A stretch of 64,000 nucleotides of DNA from Zygnema cylindricum (lineage: Eukaryota > Streptophyta > Zygnematophyceae > Zygnematales > Zygnemataceae). The position numbers were made by a program, and so were the translations under genes. The DNA is taken from assembly GCA_037447655.1 (NCBI GenBank), contig JBBHKE010001469.1, positions 229,684-293,683 of the forward strand, given 5' to 3'. Positions within the stretch are counted from its first letter, which is position 1. Each line of letters opens with the position of its first letter. The notes beneath the pieces were generated by a model. It made no database searches and had not been told where the DNA came from. It saw only the letters and a list, made by a program, of their open reading frames with translations. Below, piece by piece: positions 21,237 to 62,329 of this stretch.

Positions 21237-21970
21237 ACAAGGTTACATCATAGAACGAAAATATAGTTTCATCATCGTTGACGTTTTGAAATCAATATCA
21301 GTTTTCGAGTGTAAGACAAAGGATATTACATTTATGTTGTCATAAAAACATTATTGATTGGTAAAATGGTTTCTAGTTTTAAAATTTAAGTTGATGGTTA
21401 TTTATCAGCGTGTTATAGAATCATAGCGGTAATATATCGTATTAAACTATAGATAATCCTTAATATTTCTTCATTGTGTAGAAGATAGATCACATTATTA
21501 TAACACATTTGAAGTTTGATGGTGCTGGGTATTCATATTTTTTGGAATAAAATTATAGCATATTGGGTATCTATGATACATCAAGAAAAAAAATCCTTGT
21601 GTATAATATGCATCAGATTATGATAGAAGGTGAAAGTATATTGTAGAAAAATAAACAAATTTAAGTCTGTTATTAATAATCACGAAACTGTTTCGATAAT
21701 GATATGAATTTCTTACAACTATCAGCTCCAAATGAACTTTGAAGGCAACAATCTGAAAACAAATGATTCTGGTGTACCAAGTTCTTTTCATGACAAAATT
21801 TTGGGCAAAATTTATATTTCATTCAGTTCAAATTCGGTGAACACATGCTAGTATAGTGTAAGATTGTTAAAAAGGGATACAATCTGAAAGACTTTAGAGT
21901 CTGCAAACTCTAAAAGTTGTTTGAGTTTCACCTTTGGATACATGTGGAGGACTTGGAGGCATTCAGTTGG
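21237..21970. other. AT-rich, no gene seen
   Basis: No ORF, repeat or RNA gene recognised. Confidence 0.4.
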
Positions 21971-21989
21971 AAAGTGAACGACGGGGGTG

Positions 21990-22375
21990 GTGGATGAGGA
22001 GGTGAACGAAGGGGGGAGGGTGATGGACGACGGGGTGGTGGAGGAGGAGGTGAACGAAGGGGGGAGGGTGATGGACGACGGGGTGGTGGACGAGGAGGTG
22101 AACGAAGGGGGGAGGGTGGTGGACGACGGGGTGGTGGACGAGGAGGTGAGCGAAGGGGGGAGGGTGATGGACGACGGGGTGGTGGACGAGGAGGTGAACG
22201 AAAGGGGGAGGGTGGTGGACGACGGGGTGGTGGACGAGGAGGTGAACGAAAGGGGGAGGGTGGTGGACGACGGGGGTGGTGGACGAGGAGGTGAACGAAG
22301 AGGGGAGGGTGATGGACGACGGGGTGGTGGACGAGGAGGTGAGCGAAGGGGGGGGGGGTGGTGGACGACGGGGTG
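21990..22375. repeat. 48-bp minisatellite, about 8 copies
   Basis: 'ggtgaacgaa' or 'ggtgagcgaa' recurs at 22001, 22049, 22097, 22145, 22193, 22241, 22290 and 22338, each followed by 'gggagggtgatggacgacgg'. Because 48 is a multiple of 3, all copies stay in one frame (16-residue repeat, VDEEVNEGGRVMDDGV on +; Pro/Arg-rich on -). No start or splice context supports expression. It is followed by G-rich DNA to 22530. Confidence 0.92.
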
Positions 22376-22796
22376 AAAGAGGGGATGAACGAGGAGAGGG
22401 AGAGGGGGGAGAAGGGCGGCAGGGGAGGGGGAGGGGGAGGGGAACGTGATCTTAGAGGTGGTGAAGGAGGGGGTGAAGGACGTGTGAGGGGTGGTGGAGG
22501 AGGTGCTCGAAAGGGTGGTGGAAGTAGTGGAGGTGGCGGATACATTACTGAAAAAAAAAAATGCAGTGAAACAAAAATATCTATTAATGCATTAGATCCA
22601 TTTATCCCTGTAATTTTTTGGTAAACATTGTTGTTGAAAATGAAATTTTAAGAAATTTCCAAACAACCTGCATTGGTCAGCAAAAATCAGAAAGTTATTC
22701 AAAAATAGTAGAAACTTGGGCGATGAAAGGAGAATGCTTATATAATAATGCCCAATAAAAAAAAACTAATTTCAAAATCCAAAAATACATTCTCAC

Positions 22797-23160
22797 AAAA
22801 GTAAAATTATGAGAGGTACAAGACCATAAAAGCAAACATTGCAAATAAGATCCATTTTTTGACATGGATAATGAGGAATTACATTTGCACGTGTACTTGC
22901 TCGCTTTGTTAATGTAGCCTTGGTTGCAAGCACAGGTATCATTTGCAATATTGGAGCAAATACCGTTCCCCCCACAAGGCCCTCCCGCTTGTGTAGCATT
23001 GCAAAACGCGTCACAATTGCTTTTACTGCGTTGGTCACCATAAAATCCGCATCCTGATGGGAGGCTCGAGTTAAACATGCAATTTGCACCCACTCCGTAA
23101 CAATTCGGGAGTCCGTTGACTTGTATAAAGGGATCAATGAAATAGTTGTCGGAAATATCA
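22797..23160 (-). CDS. LRR gene: C-terminal cap plus cysteine-rich EGF-like exon
   Basis: After acceptor GAACAG the first base completes the Leu codon split in the last LRR exon, and the frame continues 'DISDNYFIDPF', as in a final LRR. There follow 'LPNCYG', 'GANCMFNSSLPSGCGFYG', 'NCDAFCNATQAGGPCGGNG', 'ICSNIANDTCACNQGYI' and 'YTCKC'. The 'CGGNGxCxxxxxxxCxCxxGY' pattern is EGF-like. Eleven cysteines and the NSS/NAT/NDT sequons indicate an extracellular location. The 3' end is uncertain: a GTGAGA donor after 22797 leaves phase 0, while a GTAATT donor would end the exon at 22883. Confidence 0.72.
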
Positions 23161-26100
23161 CTGTTCACCCCGTCCACGGATAAAGACAACCAATTAATGA
23201 ATTTTGAGTATGCTTTTGTTGTCTCACTCTTGAATTGTATGTTCAGGTGAAAAGGAAAAGAAAAAAAAGTTCTAAAGTTTACTCCCTTATATTTAGCAAT
23301 ATATGGGAGGTACTTCGTGCCGAAAAGGGGGAAGGTGCGAGGGACCTTTATGGTCTTTACACGTTTTCTCTTTGGATAAAAAAAAGGGTTCACTATCTCT
23401 GAGAAAATGAAGGCCTTTGGAAAGTTTTTTTTTTTTTGGCTCATATTATTTCTATTAATTTACTTTAAGGTATTCAGGCGTTACATTGTATTCAAAGAGA
23501 ATCTTTTTTTTCAAGGCCCTAAGAAAAACAAATATTGTTTAAAATTCAATGAAAAATCAATTAAATACAAAATCAAAATATTTGCAAAATTATTTCATCT
23601 TCAGTTTTTAAAACAAGATAAATAATGGCAATTAAACAGCTAGTGTTGTGTATCGGTAGAAAACTTATCGCGATAACACCGATACCGATAGTTATCGGTT
23701 ATCGAACGGTCAGAGGTTCCGATATATCGGTCTGGGACCAACAAATTCCATATCGGCGATAACTTAAAAAATATATAGTATGCATACAATAGTACTTTAT
23801 AACATACTGTATTATTTTATTGATTTTATATAGCGTGGCATGCCACGTATGAAAATATGTTCCGTTACAGTTTAACTGGAATTTATTACGGTAAACGCCG
23901 CACATTAACGTTGGCCGGTTAACTGAACAAAAAATTTACGGCGACGTACGGAAATTTACTAAAAAACTGGTAAACATGGAACTGGAAAAGGACGGCGGAC
24001 ACAAAAGTACAACGGACGCAAAATAACATTCTGCGCGCCGCCGGAATCGAACGGACGACTTGGAATGAGAAAACACGAACGGACGGGCCAGCGTGAGCGC
24101 CGGCATCCCGGAATGGCTCTTTTGGCAGCTTTTGCCAAAAAAGCCGACAGATTGACACGTGGCAGGTCCCCGGTGGATCTCAAGGAATTAAGGGACAAAG
24201 CCATGGCGTCGGATGTGAAAGGTACATCGTTTTTATTGGATCCGTATCAAAATCGTACAGATTTCATGGCGGCTACGGTACTTTCTATGCTTGTACACGT
24301 CCGGAGAATATGATGTACAGTTGAGTGGACAGACCGTACATTTATCTGTACGGTCCGTACAATTATCGCCGATAATTATCGTTATCGGCATTATCGCCGA
24401 TAAGTACCCGATATTATCGGCTACTTATCGGCGATAAGACCGATGTCGATATATCGTACCAATATATCGATTATCGGATACCCGAAAAAAGGCCCATATC
24501 GGTTATCGGCAAATCCTTACCGATACACAACACTATAAACAGCTCATAAAGTTGGAAATGTGAGAGCAACATTGAAAAGGTGACCCCCCTCCCTCTGCCC
24601 TTACCTTTCCTCACGCGTCTTATCGTCCCCTACACCTCACCTCCCCTTCCCTCCCCTCCCAACCGTTCTCTTCCTTTTTAATGATCCTAACCCCTCCCCA
24701 CAAATCCCTTCTCCGCCTGCCCCTTACCTTCTCCTCCCCTCCGTACCCCCTCCCACCCCCTCGCCTCCATTCCATTCCCATCCCATTCCCTCCCCCTCCT
24801 TTGCCTTCTCCTCCCACCCCTCTCTCCTTCTTTCCCCACCTTCACTCCTCTCCTCCCCTTCCCTCGCCTCCGCCACCCCCGTTTCCGCACACTTCCCCCA
24901 CACAGTCCTTGCCCCCTCATCCTACCCCCGACTCCGCTTTCTACCCCTCTCCCTCAACCCCTAAAAAAAACCCTTTCCACTCTCCCGTGCGCACCTCCTT
25001 CAATCTCCCACTTTCCCCTATTTCGCCCCCCCCCCTCCTCTCTCCTCCCGTTTACTCTTGTCCCACCCCTCTCCCTCTCTCGGACACTACCCCCCCACAT
25101 TTCTCGCCCCCCTCCTCCACCCTCCCCCTCCCCCTCCCCTTCATCACCCCCCTCCCCCTTCCCATCCCTTTCTCACTTCCCTTCCTCTTAACCATCCCTC
25201 TAGCCCTCCCACTCGCCCTACCCCTTCACTCTTTTCCTAAAACACCGTAAAATATAAATAAGAAAAAATAATAGAAATAGAATAGAAACTAAGTAGTAAC
25301 AATTAAAAAACAGTTGAAAAAATATAATAAAAACAAATAATGAAAACAAATTAAAAAATAGTTGAATATAAAATTAATTCAGCATAACCATAAAATTAAA
25401 ACAATACATAATGAAAACAGAAAAAAAATAAAATTAAAATAGAATGAAACAGAATGAAAACGAAACGAAAAAAAAAATAAAGAATGCCAATGGAAAAAAA
25501 GAAATATAAAAAAACAAAATTAACAAAAGAAAAAAAAACACAACAAAAATGGAATATAAAAAGTACAAGGATAGAATAAAAAAATATTTGAAAAGATAAA
25601 AGCAGCGATAAGCATTTGAGTTTGGAGTTTTTTGAAAGCGTCAAAAATAAGAGTCAATCAAACATTTTTCAACATGAAAAAAAACTACAATATTTTGTCT
25701 TTGTTTCTTGTTATTTATTTTTCTACGTTTATATATGCATAAACATATTACAAATATATATATTATAAATATATGACTTATATGAATATATATATATAAA
25801 TATGAATACAAAAGTATAAATATAAATAAGAAAACTGCCATGCTACACTAAATCCGGTGTAAGGAGGCGTAGGGAGGGAGATTGCCTAAAAAATTCGAAA
25901 AGAATCAGTTTGAAAAATAGAAAGAAAAGAGGAAGAAAAGGAGAGGGAGAGGGAAAGACGGTGAGAAAGAGACAAGAAAAAAATAGAAAAGGTGAGAGGG
26001 AGAGAGAGAGTGATAAAAAAAGTGAGAGAAAGGGAGAAAGGGGTTGGGGAAGGGTGAGGGTAAGCTCATTTGTCGCACTAAGTATTTTTTGTGGGAGAGG

Positions 26101-26754
26101 TAGGAGTAAGATCACCTATCACACAAAATACAGTATGAGGAAGTGGTGAGGGTAAGTTTCTGCGTCACATTAAATATGGTTGGGGGAAAGGGTGAGAGTA
26201 AACTTCCCTATCACACTTTATATTGTAGGAGAGGGGGGGATTTGGAGGAAGGGAGGGGGTTTTGGGATTTGCTCCCCATCCACAGTGACTATGGTGTTAA
26301 GGGCATCTTTTCACCCCTCTCCAACTCTCCCTCTTCCCCCCCTCTCTCAGCTTCTCCCCGCCCCCCTCTCCTTTTCCCCCTACATCCACCTAAATTGTGT
26401 TGTTTGTTCATAATAAATACGTTAGAAATAGTACCCTACAAAAACAATATCGTTACCGTTACATTCGTTGCCATCAAGCACCATTTTCGATGAAATTTTA
26501 ACTCATTTTAAAAATAACTATTGGCTGTGTAGCGTTTAGTCTTACAGGTATGCGAGCGTTGTGAGTTGACCGATGGACGATGGAATGCTTCCACTCAGCT
26601 GGTTCCCACCTAGATATCTGTAACACCATCCAACCCATCAACCCCCCTGACTCGCCACTCAATTGGTTGTCATATAGAAAACTGTAACACCATCCAACCC
26701 ATCAACCGGTCCACACTTTTACAAACGCCTTCTTTTTAGTTGGACTGAAATAAA

Positions 26755-26805
<51 letters not shown>

Positions 26806-29800
26806 AATATATATATATAAATATATATATATAAATATATATAAATAAATATATATATAAATATATATATATATGATATATAGTTATGCACATTTGCGCT
26901 AACCCAACATAAAAGTCGTAAAACTAATCAACCGTTATTTATGATGCCTTTTAGTTGAGAATAACGGACTTAACACATTCCACCCCTTTTTTTTTCTTCT
27001 TTTCTCCCTTTCTCCTCTTGTACAAAACCCACCTTTACCCAACATCACCCCTTTTACTACCCACCGCTCACACTTTTCCCCCGTCCTACTCACTGCTTCT
27101 CTCCAACTCCACTTGACCTCTCACCTTATCCTCTACCCCCTTTCCCCTCTCGAACCCCATCGCGATCTCCCCACCTCTCTCCCTTTCCGTCATTCACCTC
27201 CACCTTTTTTTTTTTTTTTAGATGGCAAAGAGTGTTTTCTGTAATATTTTCCATATTTTTTTTTCGTTAATTTTGTGGATATGTTTCCCTGTTTTGTAGT
27301 GTTGTCGGTGTACTTTTATGGGTTTTTAATTTGCATATTTTGGTGGAGGGTGAGGGGAGGTGTGGGCCTCCTCGTTGGTCATGTTTTGTACCACACTAAA
27401 TATGGTTTGAGAAAAGGATGAAGGCAAACACCCTTGTCACACTAAATATGGGTTGGTGAAAGGGTGAGGGTAAGCTCCCCAAACAGAATAAAATTAAATC
27501 AATTAGACTAAACTAACCTATCGCATAAATATAACATACAAAACAGAAAAAAAAAAAAAAAAAGCAAATTTAAAACCAAATAAAGAGAGGATAAGATATG
27601 TATAAAATTTCAATAATAGATACAATAAAAACAAAAAAATACAATATCAAAACACGATCAAACAACAAAAACTTAAAAAAAAAAAAATTAATTAAATAGA
27701 AAAATAGAGATAAAAAAGAAATAAACAATAGTAAAAAACAAAAAAAATGAGTAAAAATAAATCATAAATAGAATAAAACTTAGAAGTAACATAGGAGAAA
27801 GACACAAAAAAAAAAAAAATCAACATATAAACACAACAGAAAAGATTAGAGAAAATAAATATCTAACTGATAAAAGAAAGAATAGGGTAAGTACTACAAA
27901 AATATATATATAAATTAAATTCAAAATATGCTATAAAAAGCATAAAACAATATTGAAAATAGGAGAAGAATCAATATAAAAAACGAATAGAATAACAATA
28001 AACAAAAAAAAAAACAAAAATATATCAAAAACAAAGAAAAAATAGCTGAAAGTAAAATAAAATCAGCATAAACACAAAATTGAAAGAATACATAATGGAC
28101 ACCGAACAAAATAAAATTAAAATATAACCACTTAAATTAAGTTGTTTGTTAACTAAAAAGTCTTTGGAATAGTTGAACTTCATGCCAATTTTTTTTTTGG
28201 TAAAATATAATAAAAAAATTACGAAAAAGTACCCTAGTACCTTACGAAAAAAATAACGTCACCATTACATTCATTCCCATTAAGAACCATTTTCGATGAA
28301 ATTTTACCTCATTTTCGAACTAGCAATTGGCTTTGTGTAGTGTTTAGTCTTACAATTATATGAGCTTTGTGAGTTGACCGATGGACGCTGGAATGCTTCC
28401 ACTCAACTGGTTTCTAGATAAAAATCTGTAAAGCCATCCAACCCATCAACCGCCCCACCCTTTTAAAAATGCCTTCTATTTATTTGGATTGAAATAATAA
28501 ATAAATAAAAAAAACCATTCGCTCTAGTTTTGTACATTTGCTCTAACCCAACACAGAAGTCGTAAAAGTAAATAAGTGTCATGTAATGGTGCCTTTTTAG
28601 TTGTGAATGACATACTTAACACACTTCACCCTTTTTTGATCATTTTCTCTCCCTTTTTCTCCTTGATGTAAACCCACCTTTACCAAACCTCACCTCAACA
28701 CTCTTACCCCGTCCTTCCCACTACCTGTCTCCCACTCCTCTCACATTATCTCCCGCCCCCTTCCCCTCTCGCCCTCTACCCCGATCTCCACACCTCTCTC
28801 CCCTTCCCTCTTTCATCTCCACCTTATCAAAAATATTATTATTTTAGGTGGCAAGGAGGGATATTTTCTCTAATATTTTTCTATATTTCATTTTCGTGGA
28901 TTTTTGGCATATGTTTCCCTGTTTTTAGGTCTTTTCAGTTTAATTTTATGGGTATAATTTTGGTATTTTGGGGGTGGGAGGGTAAAGGGAGGGGTGGACC
29001 GCCCACATTGGATGACTTTAGTACAACAGTAAATATGGTTTGGGGAAAAGGTGAGAGTAAACTCCTCAAAAATAATAAAAATAGATAAAAACATTATAAA
29101 AAACTACTCCCACACCACTCTCTTTTCTCCCGTCCCACCAGTCTCGTCCTCCCTCTTCCCCTCACCCTCTGTCCCTCTCTCCCTCTCTCTTATCCCTCTA
29201 CCTTTCTCCCTCTCTCCTCTCCCTTTTTTCTCTCCCTCTCCCTATTTCCCTATCTTTCTCTCCCTCTCCCTCTCCCTCTCCATCTTTCTCTCCCTCTCCC
29301 TCTCCCTTTCCCTCTCCCTCCCTCCCCCTCCTCCTTCCTCTCCCTCTCTTTTTTCCTCTCCCTCTTTCTATCTCCTCTCGTCTTCTCCCAATCTCCTCCT
29401 CTCGTTCTCTCTCCATCTCCTCCTCTCACCCTCTCCCCAACTCCTCTCGCCCTCACCCCATCTCTTCCTCTCGCCCTCCCTCCATCTCCCCTTCTCACCA
29501 CCTCCTTATTCCCCTTCACACAACCTCCCCATCTCCGCCTCTCACCACCTCCCCTTATCCCCCACTCCGTCTCCCTCTCCATCCTTTTCTCCCTCTCCCA
29601 TTCCCTCTCTCTCTCCCACTCTTTCTCCCTCTCCCTCTCCCTCTACCTCTCCCCCGCCTTCCCTCGCCTTCCCTTGTAAATGGAACAAACAAAAACAAAA
29701 TTAAAGCTAATAAAAACGAAAAAAAACAATGCAAAAAAAAGAGAATAAAAGAAGCATAATAAAAATAAATTGAAAATAGGATATAAACATAAAAAACATA

Positions 29801-32800
29801 AAATACGGAATAACAATGGAATGAAAATGACACAGAAAATGAAATATTACATATAAAAACGTAAAACATAGAAATTTCTTAAAACTGGAATTGAAATAGA
29901 ATAAAAACAGAATAAAAATATACACCGCATTCAAGAGGGTTTGTGAGAGGATTGAGGGTACGCTTCCCTCTCGCACTAAATATGGTTTTGGGAAAGGTGA
30001 AGGTAAGCTCCCCCGTCACGCTAAACATGGTTTGTAAAAGGGATGAGGGTCAAGTCTCTTGTCACACTATGCACGGTTTGTTAGGGGTTGAGGGAAAGTT
30101 CTCGCATCACACTAAGAATAAATAAAAAAAGAAAAAAGAAATAATAAAAACAAAAATTTTAAAAAATATTAAAAAAATAATAATAATAAAACAAGATAAA
30201 AACGAAATAAAAACAAAGCAATAATAGTTGGAAATAAAATGAAATCAGAATAAACACAAATACAATTATATATTGTATATATATATATATTTATATATAT
30301 ATATATATTTATATACATATATATATACATATCCACACTGAGTATTAACTGTTAAAAAACAGATGAAAAAATAGAATGGAAATAAATCAAATACAAATTT
30401 AAGGGAGAAAAAGAGAAAAACAATAAAAAACTTAATAAAGATAAAACAAATTAGACTAACGAATAGAGCAACAAACAAATAAAAACAAAGCAGAAATAGG
30501 ATAAATTATTATAATTAAAAAAATAATAGAGCATAAAAATCAAAAAGTTAAAAATAAAAAAACAAATGAAACAAAATCGAAAACAAACAAAAAAAAAATT
30601 TGGAACACTTAAACAATACGCCAAAAATTCATTTGGTAAAATATGATAAAAAACTTAAAAAATAGTACCCTACAAAAAATAATAACGTTACCATTGCATT
30701 CATTACTATTCAACACCATTAATAGTGAAATTTCAACTCATTTTAGAAAAAGCAATTAGCTTTGTGTACTTTTTAGTCTTACAAGTCTGTGAGTTTTGTG
30801 AGTTCAACGATGGACGATGGAATGCTTCCACTCAACTGGTTGCTAGCTAGATATCTGTAACACCATCCAACCCATCAACCCCTCCAACTCTCACAGTAAA
30901 CATGGTTTGTTGGAAGGCTGAGGGTTAGCTCCTCCGTCATACTAAACATGGTATTTAAAAGTGGTGAGGGTTAGGTCTCTTGTCACATTACATACGGTTT
31001 GTTGGCGGGTGAGCGTTTGGTGTGGTTTGTTCTGATTCCCCTACCCCACTATATTTGGTTTCTAAAGCTGTGAAACTATGCTTCCTTGACACACCAAATA
31101 TCGTTTAAACGAGGGGTGAGTGTAAGCTGTCCTATAACCCTACATTTGGTTTGGGGGAGGGTTGAAGGTAAGCTCCCCGGTCACACTAAATATGGTTTGT
31201 GGGAGGGCTGAATTTCGTTACACTAAAGATGGTTTGTGGTGGGGGGGAAGAGTGTAAGCTACCCCTAGCACAGTAAATATGGCATATGGAAAGGGCGTGG
31301 GTAATCTTTAATAACACACTTAATAACTATTATAAATATGGTTGAGTGATTGGGTGAGCGTAAGCTCTCCGTCACGTTAAAGATGGTTTGGAGGTGGGCC
31401 AGTGTAAGCTCCTACGTCACACTAAATAAAGTTTATGAAAGGGGTGAGGGTAAGCTCCCCAAACAAAATAAAGACAAATAAACACAGTAAAACTACATTT
31501 AACTCTCATATTAATATAAAATTAAAAATAAAAAGAACAGATTCAAACAAATAAATAACTGAATAACGTAAGGATAAGGTAAAAATTGAAATTCACTACA
31601 CCGCGAGTCGCTATTAGAGTAAATAACGCTAATTCGGTCGCCCTAAATTTCGACTCTATCACGTTAAATAGAGTAAATGATTCTAGATTTTTCATTATAC
31701 TATTCAAGGTAAGATTTATTTAGCGTAAAATAATTCTACTATAGGTTTGTTTTAAATACTGTGGAGTACGGACGACGTCCGACCGTGCAAAATTGTACTT
31801 TTATAAGTAAAAAGGTACAAATAATGATTTAATACAGGCCGTTATCATGTAACTACGTTTAAACAAACCACGTAGTGCAAACGTCATAATGACGATAAAC
31901 TGTACGTTTTGTCAGATTCTGTACGAATACCTTATTTACAGTAGAGATATTAGCGCGCCAAATTGGAGTACACCGCATAAATTAGAGTAAATTCTTTTTC
32001 AAAAAAATTATATCACACAAATTAGAGTTTATAACTCTAATTATTTTTTTCTCTTTTTTTACTCTAATTTTTTCATTACTCTAATTACGATGCGCGGTGT
32101 ACTGTATACAATAAAAACAGAAAAACACAATATCAAACGTGATAAACACAAAAAAAAAAGTAAAAACAAAAAAAATAATAATAATAATAAAATACTGAAT
32201 AAAAACAAATTAGATCAGAATAAAACTATAATAAAAATAGAAAAAAACGAAGATATAAAATAAAAAAACAGTAAATGGAAAAAGTGGTAAAATTATAGTA
32301 AAAACGCACAAAAAAAAACGGAATAAAAACACAGTAAAATAAATAAAAAACAAAAAAAAAGCACTGAAAAAAAATAGCATAGAAACGGAATATAAATTGA
32401 CCAAAAACAAACTTGGAACGAAATAAATACAGGAAAAACGGAAACAATAATGGATAAAAAAAAGGTTGAAACATATTTAATACAACATTAAAATATAAAG
32501 AGAGTTAAGGAAAATTAAAGCGGACTAAAAAGAGATAAAAACATAATAAAAACATTAAAAAATCAAATTAAAACATGACAAAACGAAACTCGCAATGAAC
32601 AAAAAGGCAACAAAAACAGTATAAAAACAGAATAAAACATTGAATAAATACAAAATAAACGCCGAAAAAAAAGAAAAAAAAAAAAAAAAAAGAAAACAAC
32701 AAAAAAAAAAAAAAAAAAAAATAGAACACAAAAAAAACAAAATCAAAATAAAAATGAATAAAAATAGATTAAATAAAAATTAAAAACAAAATAGAAAAAG

Positions 32801-35800
32801 AATTTCTCGGAACAAAATTGGAACTAAGTAGAAGAAAAAAACAACAAAAAAAACAAAAAAAATAATAATAATAAAAACTGAATAGAAATAGAATAAAATA
32901 AACAATATAATAAAACACTTCAAAGATAGTACCCTACAAAAAACAATAACATTAACATTACATTCATTTCCACTAAACACCATTTTCGATGAACTTCTAA
33001 CTCATTTTAGAAACAGCAATCGGCTTTGTGTAGTGTTTAGTCTTACAATTGTTCGAGGTTGGTGAGTTGACTGATGGACGATGGAATGCTTCCACTCAAT
33101 TGGTTCTGTTGTAAGCTTCTGTAACGCCATCAAACCCACCAACCCCCTCAACCCCTTCAACCCTTTATAAATGCCTTTATTTATTTGGTCTAGTAAAAAA
33201 AAAACAAAAGAAAAAAAATATGAACTCTAGTTATGTACATTTGCTCTAACACAACATGGAAGTTGTAAAACTAAATAACCATTATTTTGATGCATTTTTA
33301 GTTGTAAATAACAGACTTAACACATTCCACCTTATTTGTCTATATATGTTTGTGCTAGAGGGAGGCGGAAAAGAAGGTGGGTGTGGGATTAAGCTCCCCA
33401 TCAACATTAACTATGGTGTTAAGGGCATTGGTTCCCCCCTCTCCAACTCTCCCTCTTCCCCTCAACTTTTTTTTCTCCCTCTCCTTCTCTCCCTCCACCT
33501 TTCGGTCCCCGTCCGCTCTCTTTTTCCCCCTATATCCACTTATATTGCGTTGTTGGTTTATTTAAAAAAATTGGAATAGTTGAAGAATACGTTAAAAATT
33601 TATTTGGTAAAATATGATAAAAAACAATTCAACACCATTTAAAGTGATATTTTAACTCATTCTAGAAAAAGCAATTAGCTTCGTGCACTTTATAGTCTTA
33701 CAGTTGTTGGAGCTTTGTGAGTTGAATGATGGACGATGGAATGCTTCCACTCAACTGGTTCTTAGCTAGATATCTGTAACCCCATCCCACCATCAACCCT
33801 CCCAACTCTCACAGTAAATATGGTTTGCGGAAAGGCTGAGGGTAAGCTCCCCCATAATACTAAACATGGTACTTAAGAGGGGTGAGAGTTAGATCTCTTT
33901 TCACACTACATACTGTTTGTTGGGGGGTGAGGAAAACGTCCCCCATCACACTATATTTGGTTTCTAAAGCCATGAAACTATGCTCCCTTGACACACCAAA
34001 TATTGCTAAACGAGGGGTGAGTGTAAGCTCTCCTATAATCCTACATTTGGTTTGGTGGAGGGTTGATGACAAGCTCCTTAGTCACGCTAAATATAGTTTG
34101 TGGGAGAGGGGGTGTGAGTGAAAGCTCCTCCTGGCACACTAAACATGGCAAATGGAAAGGGCATGGGTAAGCTCTATTGACACACTAAATATGGTTGGGT
34201 GATCGGGTGAGGGTAAGCTCCCCCGACACATTAAAAATGGTTTGGGGCAGGGGTGAGAGTAAGATCGTACGTCACACTAAATAGAGTTTGTGGGGGGGGA
34301 GGGCGGTGAGGGTAAGCTCTGTGAAATGCATAAAGACAAATAAACACTAACTAGAACTAAATTGAACTATCGTATAAATACAAAATAAGAGAGAAAAAAT
34401 ACCAGATTAAAAACAAAATAAAAATTGAACAAGGAGAGAATAAGTTAAGTGTAAAAATTCACTTCGGTATACGATAAAATCAGATAAAAACAATATCAAA
34501 ACAAGTTAAATACAAGAAAAAACTACAATAAAAAGTATAAAATTGAATAAAACGAAATAAATAATAAAAAAAAAACTGTTAAAACAAATTTGACCGAGAA
34601 TGAAACTATAATAGAAATAGATTAAAAAGAAAAAATATAATAACAAACAGAAAAAATAGTACCCTAAAAAAATGAGTAGCGTCACCATTACATTCATTGC
34701 CATTAAGCAACATTTTTGATGAAATTTTAACTCATTTTAGAAATAGCTATTGGCTCGTGCAACGTTTAGTCTTACAACTGTTCGAGGTTTGTGAGTTGAC
34801 TGATGGACAATGGAATGCTTCCACTCAACTGGTTGTCCGATAAATCCCTGTAACTCCATCCATCCCATCAACCCCCCAATCATTTAGAAACGCCTTCTAT
34901 TTATTTGGACAAGAACACAAAAACTATAAAAAAACGGAGTATGACTTTGCAGTTGTAAATGACGGACTTAATTTACTCCACCCCCATTTTCGTCTTTTTC
35001 TCTCCCCTTCTCCGCTTTTATAAAAACCCACCTTTAACCAACCCTACCTCACACCCTCTCCTCTTGTTGCCCCCCGTGCCCCTCTATCCTCCCCCCTTCC
35101 TATCTCCCCCCCCTTCTCTCACACTCTTTCCCAGTCCTTCCCATTGCCTCTCTCCCACTCCACCACTCTTCCTCTAACACCCCCTCCCAGCTCCCCCCCC
35201 AACCCCTATTAAACCTTCATCCTCTTTTATCAATAACATCCACGAGCCAGTATTCTTACTTTTTGTATTGTTTATTTAAATCAAGAAAATGGTATGATGC
35301 ATTTACGACACGTGATCGAAAAAGAAAAACATATGATAAAAACTTCCCTTACATCCCCCTTCGCCTTCCATTTTCAAGGCCAAAATCAAAAAAAAATGAA
35401 ATAAAAAAATTAAATGCGAAGCTTAAATGGTTTTAACTATATTAATTGATTATTCATTTGCTTGGGTCTTTTTTTCCATATGATATAGAAAACATCTGCT
35501 ATTGACTCACAAACTATATATTTTTGTGAGGTTGCCGATCTCCGGCGCAATGCTCCCTGTCAACCTTCTCCCATATATACCTCTGCATATCCCATCCCAT
35601 CTATCATCAAATGAGTTCCTTCTCCCTCCTCCCCTTTTCATCAGTTGTCAAAAGACTCCCTTTACTCCTGCCACAAAACATACACCTATGGACCACCCTC
35701 TTTTGTCGTTCAATAACCCCCTTTTCCCCCTACCTCCTTCTACCCTCCCCCCGCTGTTTAACATTTATCTACACACCCCATTTATCTACACCCCATTTAT

Positions 35801-37039
35801 CTACACCCCACGGGTCCCCCTTTTCCTTTCCTCATACCACTTGTGTTGGATTTCCTAGAAATCTGGGATTCGGCATGTCCCACACTGGGGAAAATTGAGC
35901 CGGGGCCAGGGTTCGAACTTGAGACCTTTCACTTAAGCTGTCAACGCACTAACCACTGCGCCACCATCTCAATGTAGAGCCTGGCGGGTTCGTACCCATT
36001 TATTACGGGCGCTTCTAGTATGGATATTAGCATATTCTACCCCGTATTGAACCTACATTCACGTGCCGATCCAACAACTTGACCACCCTCCCATTGGTCG
36101 TTGAATTCTTCTCTCACGCCTCCCCTCCCCCTTCCCCTCCCCCCCCCCCTCTTCTCCCCCTTTCTCCACCGTCCCCCCCTTCCCCGCTAAACCTCCGGAG
36201 AGCCCAAGCACTTAACTTGCACCTCCCTCCTATGTTTTTCCAGTCTTTCCTTTATTTTCCTCCCTTCACTCCCCCCACTCCACCCTATCCCTGTTAGCAA
36301 ATCCCTTCCCCCTTCCCTCTTCGCACTTTTCCCCTCCCTTCTCTCCTATATACTAGAAGAGATATCTGCAAAACCCCACCTGTGTGTATAAAACAATTCC
36401 TCACTCTCGCTCTCCCTCACACCCCCCCCCCCCCCCCCTCTTCTCCCCCTTTCTCCACCGTCCCCCCCCTTCCCCGCTAAACCTCCGGAGAGCCCAAGCC
36501 TCCCCTGAAAGCGCATCGCAGCAGAGAATCCAGCCAGCCTGTGAGTACTAATTCAGTGCGGTTTTAGTGCGAATTTCAGTGCGTTTTTTAATGCGAATTT
36601 CAGTGCGGTTTTAGTTCGAGATTCTGTGCGGTTATAGTGTGAAATTCATTGCGAATTCTTGCAGCAGGAGTGCACGCAGCGATGATCACTCACATGCCAG
36701 TCACTCGACCGGAAGTATCGCAGGTGATATAAATCGGATCGCATTCGATCGCAGGAAATTCTCGATTCCCATTGGTCATGGCCCCCCTCACCGCCTCCAG
36801 CGCCGCCCCTGCAGCCGCCGAACCGACAGAGGCCGCAAGGGACCAATCAGAGAGACCGATCTCACGTGCGAAGGTACAGACGCGGAGAGAGAGAGGGGGG
36901 GGAAAGGGGGAGGAGAGAGAGGGGGGATCTTACGGTCTCGTGGATCCATGGTGGGCTGTTCTCCATAATAGGCCCATGCGGGTGCCACGTGGCACAAGAA
37001 AAGCAACAAGTAAATCATTATGGCGCTGAAGGCCGCCAT
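22797..37039 (-). CDS. Secreted or receptor-like LRR protein with EGF-like tail (multi-exon gene)
   Basis: The predicted product enters the secretory pathway and carries an extracellular leucine-rich-repeat domain, the usual scaffold for ligand recognition. Exons are 36934-37039, 36694-36808, 34776-34847, 33702-33773, 33047-33118, 30783-30854, 28354-28425, 26546-26617 and 22797-23160. Together they are 1,017 nt, or 339 codons, in a single frame. Order: signal peptide, N-terminal cap, six 24-residue LRRs (xLxxNQLSGSIPxSIxQLTxL), C-terminal cap, cysteine-rich EGF-like part with several N-glycosylation sequons. The six LRR exons are 72 nt each, phase 2-2. The fifth has a TAA near its end, so the gene is either broken there or skips that symmetric exon. 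No membrane segment or kinase is seen; it may continue through 19753-19954. One LRR per exon recalls brown-algal receptor genes. Expression is unproven. Confidence 0.82.
23633..23640. repeat. 8-bp target-site duplication, left
   Basis: 'taaacagc' directly precedes the MITE at 23641 and is repeated exactly at 24536-24543. An 8-bp duplication is typical of hAT transposons. Confidence 0.9.
23641..24535. mobile_element. hAT-like MITE (TATCG family), 895 bp, intact ends
   Basis: The 16-bp terminal inverted repeats are 'tagtgttgtgtatcgg' and 'ccgatacacaacacta', flanked by the perfect 8-bp duplication 'taaacagc'. Subterminal DNA is dense in atcggcgat motifs, as expected of hAT transposase binding sites. 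Inside are the palindrome 'cgtggcatgccacg' (23834-23847) and a conserved stretch around 24060-24230 also found, inverted, in the copy at 38.4 kb. There is no transposase, so it is non-autonomous. It sits in an intron of the LRR gene. Confidence 0.92.
24570..25235. repeat. Polypyrimidine (C-rich) tract in LRR-gene intron
   Basis: About 0.66 kb of cccct/ctccc variants on +, purine on the sense strand of the LRR gene. Pro/Ser-rich ORFs across it are artefacts. Confidence 0.85.
25250..26300. repeat. A-rich segment and 'cactaaatatgg' units, duplicated at 50.2-51.7 kb
   Basis: 25250-25640 is A-rich ('aaaataaaaacaaaataaa'). 25600-25690 has 'catttgagtttggag.ttttttgaaagcg' and 'caaacatttttcaa', followed by a TA run and, near 25843-25925, 'gtaa.gaggc.tagggagggagattgc'. 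26050-26240 carries four units of the 'gtgagggtaagct...cacactaaatatggtttg' type. The same order occurs at 50190-51740. In the LRR gene this is part of the intron after the last LRR exon. Confidence 0.7.
26546..26617 (-). CDS. LRR gene: LRR exon 6 (72 nt)
   Basis: Acceptor GTTACAG, donor GTAAGAC. The 72 nt, phase 2, encode one LRR: 'YLGGNQLSGSIPSSIG' followed by 'QLTTLAYL'. The last two bases (ct) leave a Leu codon completed by the next exon. Confidence 0.88.
26618..28353 (-). other. LRR-gene intron (1,736 bp): conserved flanks, TA run, A-rich DNA
   Basis: It contains a (TA)n/(TATAAA)n microsatellite at 26757-26880, the conserved 'gctctaacccaacat(g)aaagtcgtaaaa' block at 26895-26990, and C/T-rich DNA at 26990-27210. 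It also holds two 'cactaaatatggtttg' units at 27390-27480 and A-rich DNA at 27480-28130. About 150 bp downstream of the next exon (28200-28353) are conserved with the other LRR introns. Confidence 0.6.
26643..26681 (-). pseudogene. Truncated LRR exon fragment
   Basis: After a preserved acceptor (GTGTTACAG) it reads 'FLYDNQLSG', the first third of an LRR. It then breaks off into the intron end 'gttgatgggttggatggtg' that precedes LRR exon 6. The donor half is missing and the frame does not join exon 6, so it is probably skipped. It looks like the scar of a deletion between two neighbouring LRR units. Confidence 0.75.
28354..28425 (-). CDS. LRR gene: LRR exon 5 (72 nt) with a stop codon
   Basis: Acceptor TTTACAG, donor GTAAGAC. 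It encodes 'FLSRNQLSGSIPASIG', 'QLTKLI', then TAA where the sister exons have CAA, GAC or TAC. A single C-to-T change would explain it. The exon is symmetric (72 nt, phase 2-2), so skipping it would keep the frame. Confidence 0.85.
28426..30782 (-). other. LRR-gene intron (2,357 bp)
   Basis: It repeats the order of the previous intron: the 'gctctaacccaacacagaagtcg' block (28530-28650), C/T-rich DNA (28670-28830), 'ttttcgtggatttttggcatatgtttccctgttttt' (28890-28930, also at 27260-27300), 'cactaaatatgg' units (29000-29070, 29930-30120), a polypyrimidine tract (29100-29680) and A-rich DNA (29700-30650) with a TA run at 30275-30330. Confidence 0.6.
30783..30854 (-). CDS. LRR gene: LRR exon 4 (72 nt)
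   Basis: Acceptor GTTACAG, donor GTAAGAC, phase 2-2. It encodes 'YLASNQLSGSIPSSIV' and 'ELTKLTD' plus the split Leu. Confidence 0.88.
30890..31460. repeat. Array of ~50-60 bp units ('cacactaaatatggtttg ... gtgagggtaagctcc')
   Basis: Around ten imperfect units; each has a 'tcacactaaatatggtt' part, a G-rich 'gtgggaggg' part and a 'tgagggtaagctcc' part. Spacing varies. Related units occur at 26050-26240, 27390-27480, 29000-29070, 29930-30120, 33800-34330 and 51550-51740. Confidence 0.8.
31597..32101. mobile_element. TA-type (Tc1/mariner-like) MITE, 505 bp
   Basis: It starts 'tacaccgcgagtcgctatta' and ends with the inverse-complementary 'attacgatgcgcggtgta'. TA at both ends fits a TA target duplication. 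The interior is AT-rich with many 'attagagtaaa' and 'actctaatt' motifs and no ORF. It is inserted in an LRR-gene intron. Confidence 0.82.
33047..33118 (-). CDS. LRR gene: LRR exon 3 (72 nt)
   Basis: Acceptor GTTACAG, donor GTAAGAC, phase 2-2. It encodes 'SLQQNQLSGSIPSSIS' and 'QLTNLEQ' plus the split Leu. Confidence 0.88.
33119..33701 (-). other. LRR-gene intron (583 bp)
   Basis: The shortest intron between LRR exons. It holds the 'gctctaacacaacatggaag' block (33240-33320), 'gggtgtgggattaagctccc' (33380-33405), a C/T run (33430-33530), and the exon-flanking block in shortened form (33625-33701). Confidence 0.6.
33702..33773 (-). CDS. LRR gene: LRR exon 2 (72 nt)
   Basis: Acceptor GTTACAG, donor GTAAGAC, phase 2-2. 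It encodes 'YLAKNQLSGSIPSSII' and 'QLTKLQQ' plus the split Leu. Confidence 0.88.
33774..34775 (-). other. LRR-gene intron (1,002 bp)
   Basis: 33800-34330 is a second array of about ten 'cacactaaatatggtttg' units, several nearly the same as those at 30.9-31.4 kb and in the same order. 34330-34650 is A-rich and 34656-34775 is the conserved exon-flanking block. Confidence 0.65.
34776..34847 (-). CDS. LRR gene: LRR exon 1 (72 nt)
   Basis: Acceptor GTTACAG, donor GTAAGAC, phase 2-2. It encodes 'DLSDNQLSGSIPLSIS' and 'QLTNLEQ'. Its first base (G) completes the AT left by the N-cap exon, giving 'GRVTGM' + 'DLSDNQLSG', a normal transition from cap to first repeat. Confidence 0.88.
35850..35973 (-). 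mobile_element. tRNA-derived SINE candidate
   Basis: On the minus strand 'TGGCGCAGTGGTTAGTGCG' resembles a pol III A box in a tRNA D-arm. About 30 nt later 'AAGTTCGAACCC' resembles the B box/T-arm. A non-tRNA body follows ('ccccagtgtgggacatgc', 'gaatcccagatttctagg'). The acceptor stem does not pair well, so this is not a functional tRNA. No second copy is present in the window. Confidence 0.5.
36130..36500. repeat. Duplicated ~65-bp C-rich block and C17 run
   Basis: 'ctcttctccccctttctcc', 'accgtcccccc', 'ttccccgctaaacctccgg', 'agagcccaagc' occurs at about 36149-36209 and again at 36438-36499. The second copy is preceded by a run of 17 C (36422-36438). Confidence 0.85.
36555..36660. repeat. 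Short tandem repeat 'cagtgcg(g)tttta(g)tgcgaattt'
   Basis: About five imperfect units of 18-24 bp directly downstream (in gene sense) of the N-cap exon. It may be an intronic minisatellite. Confidence 0.7.
36694..36808 (-). CDS. LRR gene: N-terminal LRR cap exon (115 nt)
   Basis: Acceptor GGCTGCAG, donor AT|GTGAGT. The reading joins exon 1 as 'DPRD' + 'RAALEAVRGAMTNGN', then 'REFPAIECDPIYITCDTSG' and 'RVTGM'. The 'ALxAxxxAM...C...ITCDxxGRVTG' arrangement is that of the LRRNT cap of plant-type LRR proteins (paired cysteines, then GRVTGL). It ends in phase 2, the phase required by the LRR exons 1.8 kb away. Confidence 0.82.
36934..37039 (-). CDS. LRR gene: first exon with signal peptide (106 nt)
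   Basis: The ATG at 37037-37039 lies in a strong context (CAACCATGGCG). It encodes a signal peptide, 'MAAFSAIMIYLLLFLCHVAP' then 'AWA', with likely cleavage before 'YYGEQP', and ends 'MDPRD' in phase 1 at donor C|GTAAGA. The intron to exon 2 is 125 bp and pyrimidine-rich on the sense strand. The overlapping plus-strand ORFs are shadows. Confidence 0.8.
36982..36995. other. 14-bp perfect palindrome with CACGTG core
   Basis: 'gtgccacgtggcac' lies inside the signal-peptide exon (codes for part of 'CHVAP'). A further 'acacgtggcag' is at 37081-37091. CACGTG is the G-box/E-box core, so a regulatory role is possible but unproven. Confidence 0.4.
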
Positions 37040-49026: not shown

Positions 49027-49505
49027 TGATATTCGAAAAATATTTGAGGATAACCCTTGGATAAAAATAGCCTTAGTGGAAAGAAAGTTACCGGACACGT
49101 TATCTGTAACGTTTACTGAGCGAACGCCAAGTGCTATTTGGCAATTTAAGCAAAAAATATATTTAATTGACGAAGAAGGTAATCGAATCAGCTCAAAAAA
49201 TGTAGAAAAATTTGGATATTTAATACACGTTGGATGCAAATGTCTATACTCGTATTCTTTGTGAAGATTTAGAGAAGCATCCTTCTTTGGCAAAAAAAGT
49301 TGTTTCTGCTGTACGTTATGGTCAAAGAAGATGGGATCTAAATCTGGAACAGAAAATAAACGTTAAAATGCCGGAAAAGGGCTTTCAAGAGGCTTATGAT
49401 TATCTAAATTCATTAAACAAAAAAGGCAAGCTGTTTGACCAAAATTATAAGGTAATTAACTTAAAAGATCCAAGAGAGTATTATATTGAAAAACATGAAA
49501 TGTAA
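49027..49505 (+). pseudogene. ftsQ: Bacterial ftsQ fragment (Rickettsiales-like)
   Basis: FtsQ is the bitopic divisome protein of bacteria. The reading 'FDIRKIFEDNPWIKIALVER', 'KLPDTLSVTFTERTP', 'AIWQFKQKIYLIDEEGN' corresponds to the end of the POTRA domain. After one frameshift near 49225-49232, 'DANVYTRILCEDLEKHPSL', 'VRYGQRRWDLNLEQKINVK', 'KLFDQNYKVINLKD' and 'YYIEKHEM' give the beta domain to the natural C-terminus. This pattern is that of alphaproteobacterial, Rickettsia-like FtsQ. The N-terminal and transmembrane part is missing and the gene starts abruptly at a T/C tract. It is therefore a broken insert, not an active gene. Confidence 0.85.
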
Positions 49506-50184
49506 TTTCGTACTCTTTCTTGAATCTAATTTTCTAACGGTTGTCTCTTTGTTTTTATTGTTAACCATCACTATTGAATTGCAATGCAAAAAATCTATAG
49601 TCTTCAGGCTAATAATTTTAACATTATATCATGTTTTGGCGACTAAGAGTTCTTGCTTTTATTTTAGACTAAGCTTGTTTGCAGTAATAATGGGTCTTTT
49701 CTTTTGTCTTCTTGTGTATTTCTTGAATTTAGGTTATAATGTGCGGCATAAAATTGCCGAAATTTTTTCACGTATTTTTATATTTCTGGGGAAGCTTTTA
49801 TGTGGTATAAAATATCAAGTCACTGGCATAGATAAATTGCCTCAAGATGGAAAACCTTACATAGTTCTTGCTAATCATCAGTCATTTTGGGAAAATCTCT
49901 TTATGCAATTGATTATTCCCAAGCATTCGCGGGAAGATGGAAAACCTTACATAGTTCTTGCTAATCATCAGTCATTTTGGGAAAATCTCTTTATGCAATT
50001 GATTATTCCCAAGCATTCGCGGGTTCTCAAGAAGGAATTGTTTGATATGCCTGTATTTGGCTGGGGTTTAAAAATGCTTAATCCTGTAGCTATAGATAGA
50101 AGTAATAGCCGCTCAGTACTTCAGATATTAACTGAAGGGCAAAAAAAAATAGAATAGGGCTTGCCTCTCATGATATTCCCAGAA
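49486..50184 (+). pseudogene. plsC: Bacterial plsC-like acyltransferase, broken
   Basis: PlsC makes phosphatidic acid by acylating 1-acyl-glycerol-3-phosphate at the bacterial membrane. Hydrophobic N-terminal segments ('LFFCLLVYFLNLGYN') are followed by 'GKLLCGIKYQVTGIDKLP', the catalytic HX4(D/E) motif as 'NHQSFWE', 'VLKKELFDMPVFGWGL' and 'NPVAIDRSNSRS'. A 90-bp in-frame tandem duplication doubles the catalytic block. A TAG at 50155-50157 comes before 'GLPLMIFPE', after which homology ends where the expected GTR is due. The sequence style is that of gammaproteobacteria such as Legionellales, unlike the neighbouring ftsQ. The true start is unclear; homology is clear from about 49680. Confidence 0.82.
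49844..50023 (+). repeat. 90-bp exact tandem duplication inside plsC
   Basis: 'aagatggaaaaccttacata' begins at 49844 and again at 49934; the two 90-bp units look identical and keep frame (30 codons each), so the event is recent or an assembly artefact. Confidence 0.92.
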
Positions 50185-50189
50185 CAGTG

Positions 50190-51293
50190 CAACGATATTA
50201 TAAATAGATAATAAATATAAACACAGAAAAAAAAACCTCCGTAAAAAAAAATAAACAATAAACAAAATAAAAATACAAAAGAACCAAAATGAAAAACACG
50301 ATTGAGATCAAATGAAAAAAAATGAATATGACATAAAAAATAACAAAGCAAACAAAAAAAAAAAAAAAAAAAAAAATAGAAAGAAAGTAAAAGATAGAAC
50401 AAAAATAAAATAAAAACAGAAGAGGAATAGAATCAAAACCAAAAAAAATGATGAATAAAAACAGCGCAAAAACTAAATAAACAAACATGATAAAAAAATG
50501 AATAAAAAAGGAACAAAAAAAAAACGAAAAAAAAAAAAAAAAACAAATTTAAAAAAAATAAAACAGAAAAAACTAATTAAAAAGAAAAAAAAAAAAGAAA
50601 AAAATAGAATAAAAAAAAAACCAAAAATAAACAACAAAATAAAAAACAAAAAAAAAGAATAGAAAAACAACACAAACAGAAAAATAAATAACATAGAGTA
50701 AAATCATAAAAAGAATTGGAAAAACAGAATATAAAAGAAATAAATTGAGTAAAACCTAAGAATAAATAAAAAACGATAAAAGAAAGATTAAAAACAATAT
50801 TAAAAAAAAAAAAAAAAAAAAAGATAAAAAGAAAATAAAAACAAAGCAAAAATAGTTGAAAATAAAATGAAATCAGAATAAACACAAAATTAATACAATT
50901 TAAAATATAATGAAAACTCAATGAAAACAGAACGAAAAGAGATATAAAGTACAATGAAACAGAATGAAAACGAAACGAACACCAAAAAAAACAGAATGCC
51001 AATGGAAAAGAACCAAATAGAAACAAAACAAAAAAAAAAAAAAAAAAAAAAAACACAACAAAAAATGAATAAAAAAGTATAAAGATAGAATAAAAAAAGA
51101 TTTGAAAAGATAAAAGCAACAACAACCATTTGAGTTTGGAGGTTTTTGAAAGCGAAAAAATCAACAGTCGGTCAAACATTTTTCAATACAAAAAAAACTA
51201 CAATATTTTTTATCTTTATTTTTTGCTATCTTTTTTATTTCATAATACATACATGCAGAAATATAAATACAAAAACATTAACATACATGTATA

Positions 51294-51333
<40 letters not shown>

Positions 51334-51740
51334 GAAAATGGACATGCGACACTAAGTCCCGTGTAAAGAGGCATAGGGAGGGAGATTGCGCAAAGGCTTC
51401 GAAAAGAATCAGTTTGAAAAATAGAAAGAATAGAGGAAAAAAAAGGGAGGGAGAGGAAAGGGGGGTGAGAAAGAGACTTAAAAAATTAGAAAAGAGAGAG
51501 AGAGAGAGCGATTGATAAAATAAAGAAGAGAAAGGGAATAAGGGGTTGGAGAAGGGTGAGGGTAAGATCCTTTGTCACGCTAAATATTGTTTGTGAGCCC
51601 TATCACACAAAAAGCGGTTTGGGGGAGTGGTGAGGGTAAGTTTCCGTATCACATTAAATATGGTTGGGGGAAGAGGTGAGGGCTGTATGATTGTGTGAGA
51701 GAGAGGGGGAAAAGAAGGTGGGTGTGGGATTAAGCTCCCC
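50190..51740. repeat. A-rich repeat block, copy of LRR-gene intron DNA at 25.25-26.3 kb
   Basis: It has the same order of landmarks as 25250-26300: A-rich DNA, 'ccatttgagtttggag', 'caaacatttttcaa', a TA run (51298-51328), 'aaagaggcatagggaggg', 'aagaatcagtttgaaaaata', then 'cactaaatatgg' units. Its last part (51695-51740) matches 33360-33405 instead. No LRR exon is present. Confidence 0.75.
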
Positions 51741-51839
51741 ATTATCTACTTTTCGAAACGCCGCGATGGCCGCTGACGCGCGGCAGTACGGACGGGTGGT
51801 ATATGGACGGACGACACAGTACGGATGGACGACCAGGGA

Positions 51840-61057: not shown

Positions 61058-62311
61058 TCATCCAAATTGACACGCGGCCATATATTCTGCTTCGGTTGAA
61101 CTTAGTGCGACAGTTGGATGAAGTCGTGAGCTCCAAGAAACTGCCGCGCCGCCAAATACAAATGCATAACGGGTCGTTGACTTTCCTTTATCAAAGTCGC
61201 CGCCCCTGTCCGCATCACAATATCCCACGCAATTCAAAGACACCTGTCCATATTGAAATAGTAATCCAATCTCAGTTGTACCTACAAGGGAACTAAAAAT
61301 TCTTTTCACGGCTTCCCAATGAATCTTCTTAGGAGCCTGACAAAAACGGCTCACGACAGATATTGCGGCTGAAATATCCGGTCGGGTGGCCACACTTAAA
61401 TACATCAGACTTCCAACTGCCTCACTATAGGGCACGTGGACAGTTTCCTCCTCCTCAAATTTGTGATATTGTAGTTTAGAATCTAGTGGTGTCAAGACCG
61501 GCTTAGAATCCAACATAGCAAATTTTGTCAGTACTTCTCTACAATATTGCGCTTGCGATAGTTTAATATCCTCATTATCGTACCTTAAAACTTCCACCCC
61601 AAGAATATATCGTACTTCCCCCAAATCTGTGACTTTAAAATGTAGTTGCATGTACTCCTTCAATTCCGCTATTCGCGTCAACTTGTCACATATCATCAAA
61701 AAATCATCCACATACAAAGAAAATATGATTTGATCCTCCCCCTCACCTTTTATGTATACTCCATAATCTGAAACTGTACGTACGAATCCAAATTCGGTAA
61801 GGACATTGTGTAATCGTAAATACCAAGTCCTTGGTGCTTGCTTTAGTCCGTACAAGGACTTTCGCAGCCGCCATACCTTCCCCTCCTTCGACACTACTCC
61901 TTCCGGAACCTTCATATAAACCTCCTCCTCTAAGTCACCATTCAAGAACGCCGTATCTACGTCCATTTGGTGTATGTGTTTCTTGCCGTCAGCGGCAATA
62001 GCAATAATCATCCTCAAAGAAACAAACTTGACAACCGGTGCATATGTCTCCGTATAATCTATCCCCTCCCTTTGTTGAAAACCCTTGCAAACTAGCCGAG
62101 CCTTATGTTTTAGTACTTCTCCCGATGCACCAGTTTTAGTTTTAAAAATCCACTTCGCATCAAAAGCCTTTTTACCCTCCAGTAAAATTACCTCCTCAAA
62201 TGTTTGGTTGTTGATAATAGATTGAAGTTCTCTTTCCCACGCCGGTTTCCAATGCGTCTCCCAATCGCATGATTTACATGCTTCCATGTACGATTGCGAA
62301 TCGCCCGGCAT
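61058..62311 (-). CDS. copia reverse transcriptase and RNase H (open part of pol)
   Basis: 418 codons. Reverse transcriptase: 'WIFKTKTGASGEVLKHKARL', 'GIDYTETYAPVVK', 'HQMDVDTAFLNGDLEEEVYM', 'LYGLKQAPRTWY' and the catalytic 'SLYVDDFLMI'. RNase H: 'GYCDADRGGDFDKGKSTTRY', 'VSWSSRLHPTVALSSTEAEY'. After the stop at 61058, RNase H continues in another frame with 'KNPVFHKRTKY', so the C-terminus is frameshifted. Upstream, a TAG at 62330-62332 separates it from the linker in the same frame. Confidence 0.93.
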   Translation of the reverse strand: MPGDSQSYMEACKSCDWETHWKPAWERELQSIINNQTFEEVILLEGKKAFDAKWIFKTKTGASGEVLKHKARLVCKGFQQREGIDYTETYAPVVKFVSLRMIIAIAADGKKHIHQMDVDTAFLNGDLEEEVYMKVPEGVVSKEGKVWRLRKSLYGLKQAPRTWYLRLHNVLTEFGFVRTVSDYGVYIKGEGEDQIIFSLYVDDFLMICDKLTRIAELKEYMQLHFKVTDLGEVRYILGVEVLRYDNEDIKLSQAQYCREVLTKFAMLDSKPVLTPLDSKLQYHKFEEEETVHVPYSEAVGSLMYLSVATRPDISAAISVVSRFCQAPKKIHWEAVKRIFSSLVGTTEIGLLFQYGQVSLNCVGYCDADRGGDFDKGKSTTRYAFVFGGAAVSWSSRLHPTVALSSTEAEYMAACQFG

Positions 62312-62329
62312 ATTATCGCATAATGATTG

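Follow-up and report, generated by a model that had tools for sequence, protein, structure and literature searches.

The 64,000-nucleotide stretch analysed here (the window; positions 229,684 to 293,683 of contig JBBHKE010001469.1 of the streptophyte alga Zygnema cylindricum) contains a minus-strand gene in which leucine-rich repeats (LRRs) are encoded one to an exon. We consider it likely that this gene belongs to a large, diversifying family of plant-type LRR proteins with a role in recognition, probably secreted; secretion and ligand recognition are predicted for the product from its sequence. The window copy was designated W, and six of its LRR exons, L1 to L6, were numbered 5′ to 3′ along the gene. 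Each was exactly 72 nt long, lay between a ...TTACAG acceptor and a GTAAGAC donor, and was in phase 2 on entry and in phase 2 on exit (6/6), which confirmed a preliminary description of this DNA; the spacing of 0.6 to 2.4 kb given there corresponded to measured gaps of 583 to 2357 nt. The exons and an adjoining fragment were located as follows.

34776–34847, minus strand: L1, LRR exon of 72 nt, phase 2-2.
33702–33773, minus strand: L2, LRR exon of 72 nt, phase 2-2.
33047–33118, minus strand: L3, LRR exon of 72 nt, phase 2-2, within a putative exchange tract.
30783–30854, minus strand: L4, LRR exon of 72 nt, phase 2-2.
28354–28425, minus strand: L5, LRR exon of 72 nt, phase 2-2, with an in-frame TAA at 28356–28358.
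26546–26617, minus strand: L6, LRR exon of 72 nt, phase 2-2.
26650–26681, minus strand: broken start of a duplicate LRR exon directly upstream of L6; a 32-nt fragment of an eighth LRR exon fused to a repeated acceptor region.

The LRR character of these segments was evaluated with a simple consensus score. As the control, the window was shuffled 30 times with a second-order Markov model and the highest score in each shuffle was taken. L1 to L6 each scored 21, whereas the shuffles peaked at 12 to 18. The flanks of the six exons were moreover homologous to one another, and a chance match was ruled out on these two grounds. When the five open LRR exons were joined, they matched Pfam LRR_8 (2.4e-23); the repeats were of the plant 24-residue type, with matches to both LRR_8 and LRR_1. 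The shared consensus that had been claimed for all six exons held for the score, but L4 reads VELT in place of xQLT and L5 carries the stop as its last full codon, so that the frame was open in 5/6 exons.

The rest of the gene was modelled by comparing the gene copies on the window contig (C1098), of which a stretch of 282,501 bases including the window was analysed (19,759 of these were N). Array A lies at about 202–211 kb of C1098 on the same strand as W, and array B at about 318–343 kb on the opposite strand. Copy B3 (about 300–301 kb) consists of 3′ exons only, and copy D (about 308.5–308.9 kb, minus strand) of 5′ exons only. The conserved 5′ exons, signal-peptide-like and N-cap, were exposed by the alignment of W, A and B, and the Cys-rich and Pro-rich 3′ exons by that of W, B and B3. 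Splicing was predicted from sequence, and we infer that the modelled exons are joined accordingly in the transcript. The model spans 21928–37039 on the minus strand and has eleven exons; AG/GT was present at all ten predicted introns, and the phases along the joined model were 0, 1, 2, 2 (a value kept across the seven 72-nt exons), 1 and 0. Ten of the eleven exons were open with correct borders and phases. The exons added to L1 to L6 are listed below; L065 denotes a second locus on another contig.

36934–37039, minus strand: exon 1, with a start codon and a signal-peptide-like N-terminus (MAAFSAIMIYLLLFLCHVAPAWA...), conserved in A and B.
36694–36808, minus strand: exon 2, LRR N-cap-like (..IECDPIYITCDTSGRVTG), phase 1 to 2, intact in A and frame-broken in B.
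35511–35582, minus strand: exon 3, a diverged first LRR (GIYGRRLTGSIAPEIGNLTKIYS) of 72 nt, phase 2-2, with counterparts in A and B.
22883–23160, minus strand: C-terminal LRR cap and Cys-rich/EGF-like exon, phase 2 to 1, with relatives in B, B3 and L065.
21928–22547, minus strand: Pro-rich extensin-like last exon, ending ..STCIQR stop, with relatives in B and B3 and a Pro-rich counterpart in L065.

Exon 1 ends in phase 1 at GTAAG. Its N-terminus was hydrophobic in W, A and B, and the 19-residue hydropathy reached 1.6 nowhere else in the product. From residue 58 onward, the product could be aligned with FLS2 across its N-cap and LRRs. The LRR score of exon 3 was 15, inside the shuffle range and insufficient by itself; the exon was accepted because it had counterparts in A (72 nt, same borders) and B (66 nt). 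A Pfam EGF match to the Cys-rich exon fell below the Pfam cut-off, and the last exon was 43% Pro with nine SPP+ motifs. No match was returned by an Rfam scan of the window, by an NCBIfam scan with two Cys-rich exons, or by tblastn against plasmids. LRR exons scoring at least 15 were confined to three arrays in the 282 kb of C1098, and the repeat number differed between arrays: W has six LRR exons and the cap, and A has four and the cap.

Locus L065 (contig C249, 7.5 kb), which took no part in building the model, contained four 72-nt LRR exons followed by a Cys-rich exon and then a Pro-rich exon, in the order and phases of the model. Its Cys-rich exon was 57% identical and was entered and left in the same phases (borders CTACAG/TGATGTT... 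and GCAAAT/GTATGT), and its Pro-rich exon had the same entry phase and ended ..PRPRLLLRK stop. The 5′ exons of L065 were not found within the 7.5 kb read. Single exons were used as queries against the genome of 352.8 Mb. With exon L4 and its flanks as the DNA query, and 40 of 972 candidates scored, 41 matches were obtained, 13 of them on C1098 and the other 28 spread over 17 further contigs. A 72-nt AG..GT phase-2 LRR exon was present in 28/28 of the latter, and the 30 off-contig LRR exons, two neighbours included, contained no stop (0/30). The Cys-rich exon search had 464 candidates, and all of the 150 places scored were matches (141 without a stop, 9 with one), B and B3 not being among them. 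Assuming one Cys-rich exon per gene, we infer a family of well over a hundred genes. When the genome was searched with PF00560, 150 of 933 candidates were scored and a single match was obtained; we think that single-repeat exons score too low for this profile. No relative of the Cys-rich exon was found at E 1 among the best 120 of 4428 protein matches, and these 120 look like generic LRR proteins. The earlier proposal of a modular, one-repeat-per-exon gene that open-reading-frame calling would miss is well supported by the whole-gene model, by the genome-wide family and by the matching 3′ exon order of a second locus.

A non-coding or mobile repeat that resembles an LRR exon would also generate many similar blocks. 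The exon flanks are repeated as well as the exons, the introns hold a repeat with a 46-nt period, and array B includes one degenerate block, all of which would suit such an element. Against this, LRR exons at the above score were found in three arrays only across the C1098 stretch, the off-contig matches kept their splice borders without exception and were free of stops, and the variation tracked codon function as described below. The same blocks lacking splice sites, which the preliminary description had named as the sign of a non-coding repeat, were not seen among the 28 off-contig matches, which came from 40 of 972 candidates scored with a query that included flanks. The mobile or satellite repeat was therefore rejected on the confinement to three arrays and the 28/28 intact borders, and we regard it as very improbable.

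Variation among the exons was analysed by codon. The xxLxLxx class comprised codons 22, 23, 1, 3 and 4 of the exon and follows the standard LRR strand of the plant resistance-gene literature. Among the 23 codons of the 14 contig exons, these five showed the greatest variation (rank 1 among 33,649 sets), and they ranked 1 of 33,649 again in the 30 off-contig exons taken separately; codon 20 was the next most variable. In the 30 off-contig exons, the pN/pS ratio was 1.31 at xxLxLxx and 0.39 at the other codons; for all 44 exons together the values were 1.45 and 0.42. For the W–A pairs of L1, L2 and L4, pN was 0.50 versus a pS of 0.20 at xxLxLxx, and 18.3 of the 32.3 nonsynonymous differences fell at these codons (P 14/33,649). 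The flanks of five W–A exon pairs differed at 184/1543 positions, and dN/dS for the N-terminal exons was 1.03 to 1.53 over few sites. Change concentrated in this way at exposed codons, with the scaffold held back, is the pattern that diversifying selection on a ligand-binding face would be expected to produce.

Several observations weigh against the reading of W as a member of a diversifying recognition family. The xxLxLxx class was fixed after the per-codon list had been viewed, with the 30 off-contig exons as a later set, and the pN/pS ratios were counted over paralogue pairs with no tree. In the W–A pairs of L1, L2 and L4, the scaffold pN of 0.11 exceeded the pS of 0.05, over few sites, and the dN/dS of 0.59 to 0.88 for the Cys-rich exon indicated mild constraint. 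The 28 off-contig matches are not an unbiased sample, because they were picked by similarity to one query and its flanks. The model reaches its stop codon without a kinase, though an alternative 3′ exon could exist, and no membrane-like segment after the N-terminus was detected in its product by hydropathy (19-residue window, at least 1.6). The word receptor, as used initially, is hence unsupported if a membrane receptor is meant. The local copies are partly decayed: no 3′ exons of A were detected as far down as 130 kb of C1098, in a stretch that is partly N; in B, the frame is broken in both exon 2 and the Cys-rich exon, and the fifth LRR exon is degenerate; and the Cys-rich exon of B3 is cut short. 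No LRR exon scoring at least 15 was found near copy D. In W, the Cys-rich exon ends at a donor, GTAATT, that is weaker than the corresponding GTAAGT in B. Furthermore, L5 would have to be skipped if the window copy is to make protein.

The window copy may thus be partly decayed. It may even be a pseudogene, in decay within a family whose active members lie elsewhere in the genome; for this copy, that is a serious possibility that falls somewhat short of an even chance, and it is compatible with the favoured reading of the family. The in-frame stop in L5, the weak donor, the truncated exon duplicate and the incomplete or broken neighbours A and B would all be accounted for by decay. On the other side, ten of the eleven modelled exons have an open frame and the right borders and phases, the phase 2-2 of L5 permits its skipping, and stops are scarce elsewhere in the genome (0/30 off-contig LRR exons and 9/150 scored Cys-rich exons).

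The comparison of W with array A exposed one tract that differed strongly from its surroundings.

32752–33350, minus strand: tract nearly identical to copy A that holds L3, with 6 mismatches in 589 compared positions (99%).

The remainder of the L3 block differed between W and A at 67/614 positions (11%), the L4 block at 105/898 (12%) and the cap-L1-L2 block at 317/2393 (13%). The upstream end of the tract coincided with a break in the colinear W–A alignment, where A is 2.8 kb longer. A recent conversion or exchange of about 600 bp with one exon is the simplest reading of this tract.

For the favoured reading, in which W belongs to a diversifying recognition family, the following mechanism is proposed. 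Splicing would join the signal peptide, the N-cap, a run of 72-nt one-repeat exons, the C-cap with the Cys-rich domain, and the Pro-rich tail. Since every LRR exon is in phase 2-2, repeats could be gained, lost, skipped or swapped with the frame intact. Modules would move among arrays as the homologous introns undergo unequal recombination and gene conversion, and the ligand-binding face would diversify at the five solvent-exposed xxLxLxx codons while the scaffold remained constrained. If the genes are transcribed, a modular, hypervariable LRR recognition family would be placed in the streptophyte algae, which would be relevant to the question of whether extracellular LRR recognition had diversified before land plants arose. 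A wider proposal is offered tentatively, and we would sooner doubt it than accept it: a streptophyte alga would have well over 100 secreted LRR genes built of freely exchangeable single-repeat exons, with conversion swaps, selected exposed residues and perhaps further combinations through optional splicing of the phase-symmetric exons, as a form of anticipatory recognition older than the immune receptors of land plants. The terms LRR and leucine-rich are absent from the main texts of two Mesostigma genome papers (PMC7027972, PMC6947507), within a wider literature that was only sparsely covered.

Further features of the window and its contig were recorded. The 46-nt-period repeat (..AAACCATATTTAGTGTGAC..GGGAGCTTACCCTCACC..) occurs in sense orientation in the introns of the LRR genes, at 26–34.3 kb and 51.6 kb of the window and at 200–209 kb and 320–333 kb of C1098. 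With up to three substitutions, it had 69 matches in the C1098 stretch, of which 64 lay in A, W and B in gene sense and 2 in a flank copy at 51.6 kb of the window. This copy of LRR-gene intron and flank DNA (window 50183–51743) is 89% identical to array A, and a strict scan there gave no LRR exon. Window 49027–50222 (plus strand) encodes a Rickettsiales FtsQ and an acyltransferase, colinear with those of Candidatus Megaira, an endosymbiont of Mesostigma viride, at identities of 94.6% (920 columns) and 92.1% (291 columns); the acyltransferase frame has an internal duplication of about 90 nt. Within a eukaryotic contig of 496 kb, this Rickettsiales DNA looks like a nuclear insertion. A Copia-type retrotransposon polymerase occupies window 61061–63755 (minus strand; RVT_2 at 61061–62329), and a copy with 88% identity lies at 337–339.7 kb of C1098. 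Very long CT/GA-rich low-complexity tracts at 11–19 kb and 53–58 kb of the window open spurious frames in several directions.

The window family was compared with four known systems. Its best LRR matches were the ectodomains of plant receptor kinases, namely FLS2 and also GSO1 and MIK2. As in plant LRR receptor-like proteins and kinases, the repeats are of the plant type with 24 residues and the N-cap aligns with that of FLS2, and some plant receptor kinases have 72-nt phase-2 LRR exons. Unlike these proteins, the model has no kinase or membrane segment, ends in a Cys-rich and Pro-rich tail, and is built from an array of similar single-repeat exons separated by long introns. The same genome also encodes a plant-type LRR receptor kinase (G000 C1308, L014), the LRR ectodomain of which lies in a single open frame of 1037 aa, unlike the one-repeat-per-exon family.

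Plant LRX proteins have the order signal peptide, LRR, Cys-rich and Pro-rich, and the window family, with a putative signal peptide, shares this overall domain order, LRR similarity to LRX2 (chain 6qxp) and a Pro-rich SPn tail after the LRRs at both W and L065. The family could accordingly consist of structural, LRR-extensin-like cell-coat proteins, in which variable repeats bind coat polymers or self partners. However, a single-sequence search with the Cys-rich exon, in a library that contains 6qxp, perhaps without its hinge, returned no PDB chain with an E value of 10 or less. Moreover, hypervariability limited to the exposed face distinguishes the family from LRX proteins and is unexpected for a constant structural role. 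A structural function for the family is rather unlikely on this evidence.

Equal-length LRR exons have been expanded in other lineages. In Tetrahymena, 90-bp phase-2 LRR exons were massively expanded by shuffling, according to the part of the source consulted (PMC6564038). The window family likewise has expanded phase-2 LRR exons of equal length, but these are 72 nt long (one cap exon being 66 nt) and belong to a different lineage.

The closest published exon format is that of the brown algal ROCO genes, for which the sections consulted describe one LRR per 72-bp phase-2 exon, positively selected concave-face sites, exon shuffling and alternative splicing (PMC11378527); Ectocarpus has 35 such LRR-ROC-COR genes by that account, in which Zambounis et al. 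(2012) is cited. The exon format of the window family is hence not new, because the same format together with concave-face selection was published for the ROCO genes (PMC11378527, as consulted). The shared format would suit a gene of the brown-algal type in the window, but this is hardly credible: the 5′ end consists of signal-peptide-like and plant-type N-cap exons, the host is a streptophyte, and Cys-rich and Pro-rich 3′ exons at both W and L065 led to the rejection of an LRR-ROC-COR gene. ROC-COR after the LRRs was not present in the modelled 3′ exons at these two loci, the introns and flanks being without an HMM scan for ROC. The link to brown algal receptors drawn in the preliminary description is therefore not supported. 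Relative to the ROCO genes, the window family differs in its lineage, plant-type ectodomain, Cys-rich and Pro-rich end and copy number (150 scored Cys-rich exons), and the exon format, site-specific diversification and exchange tract are seen together in one genome.

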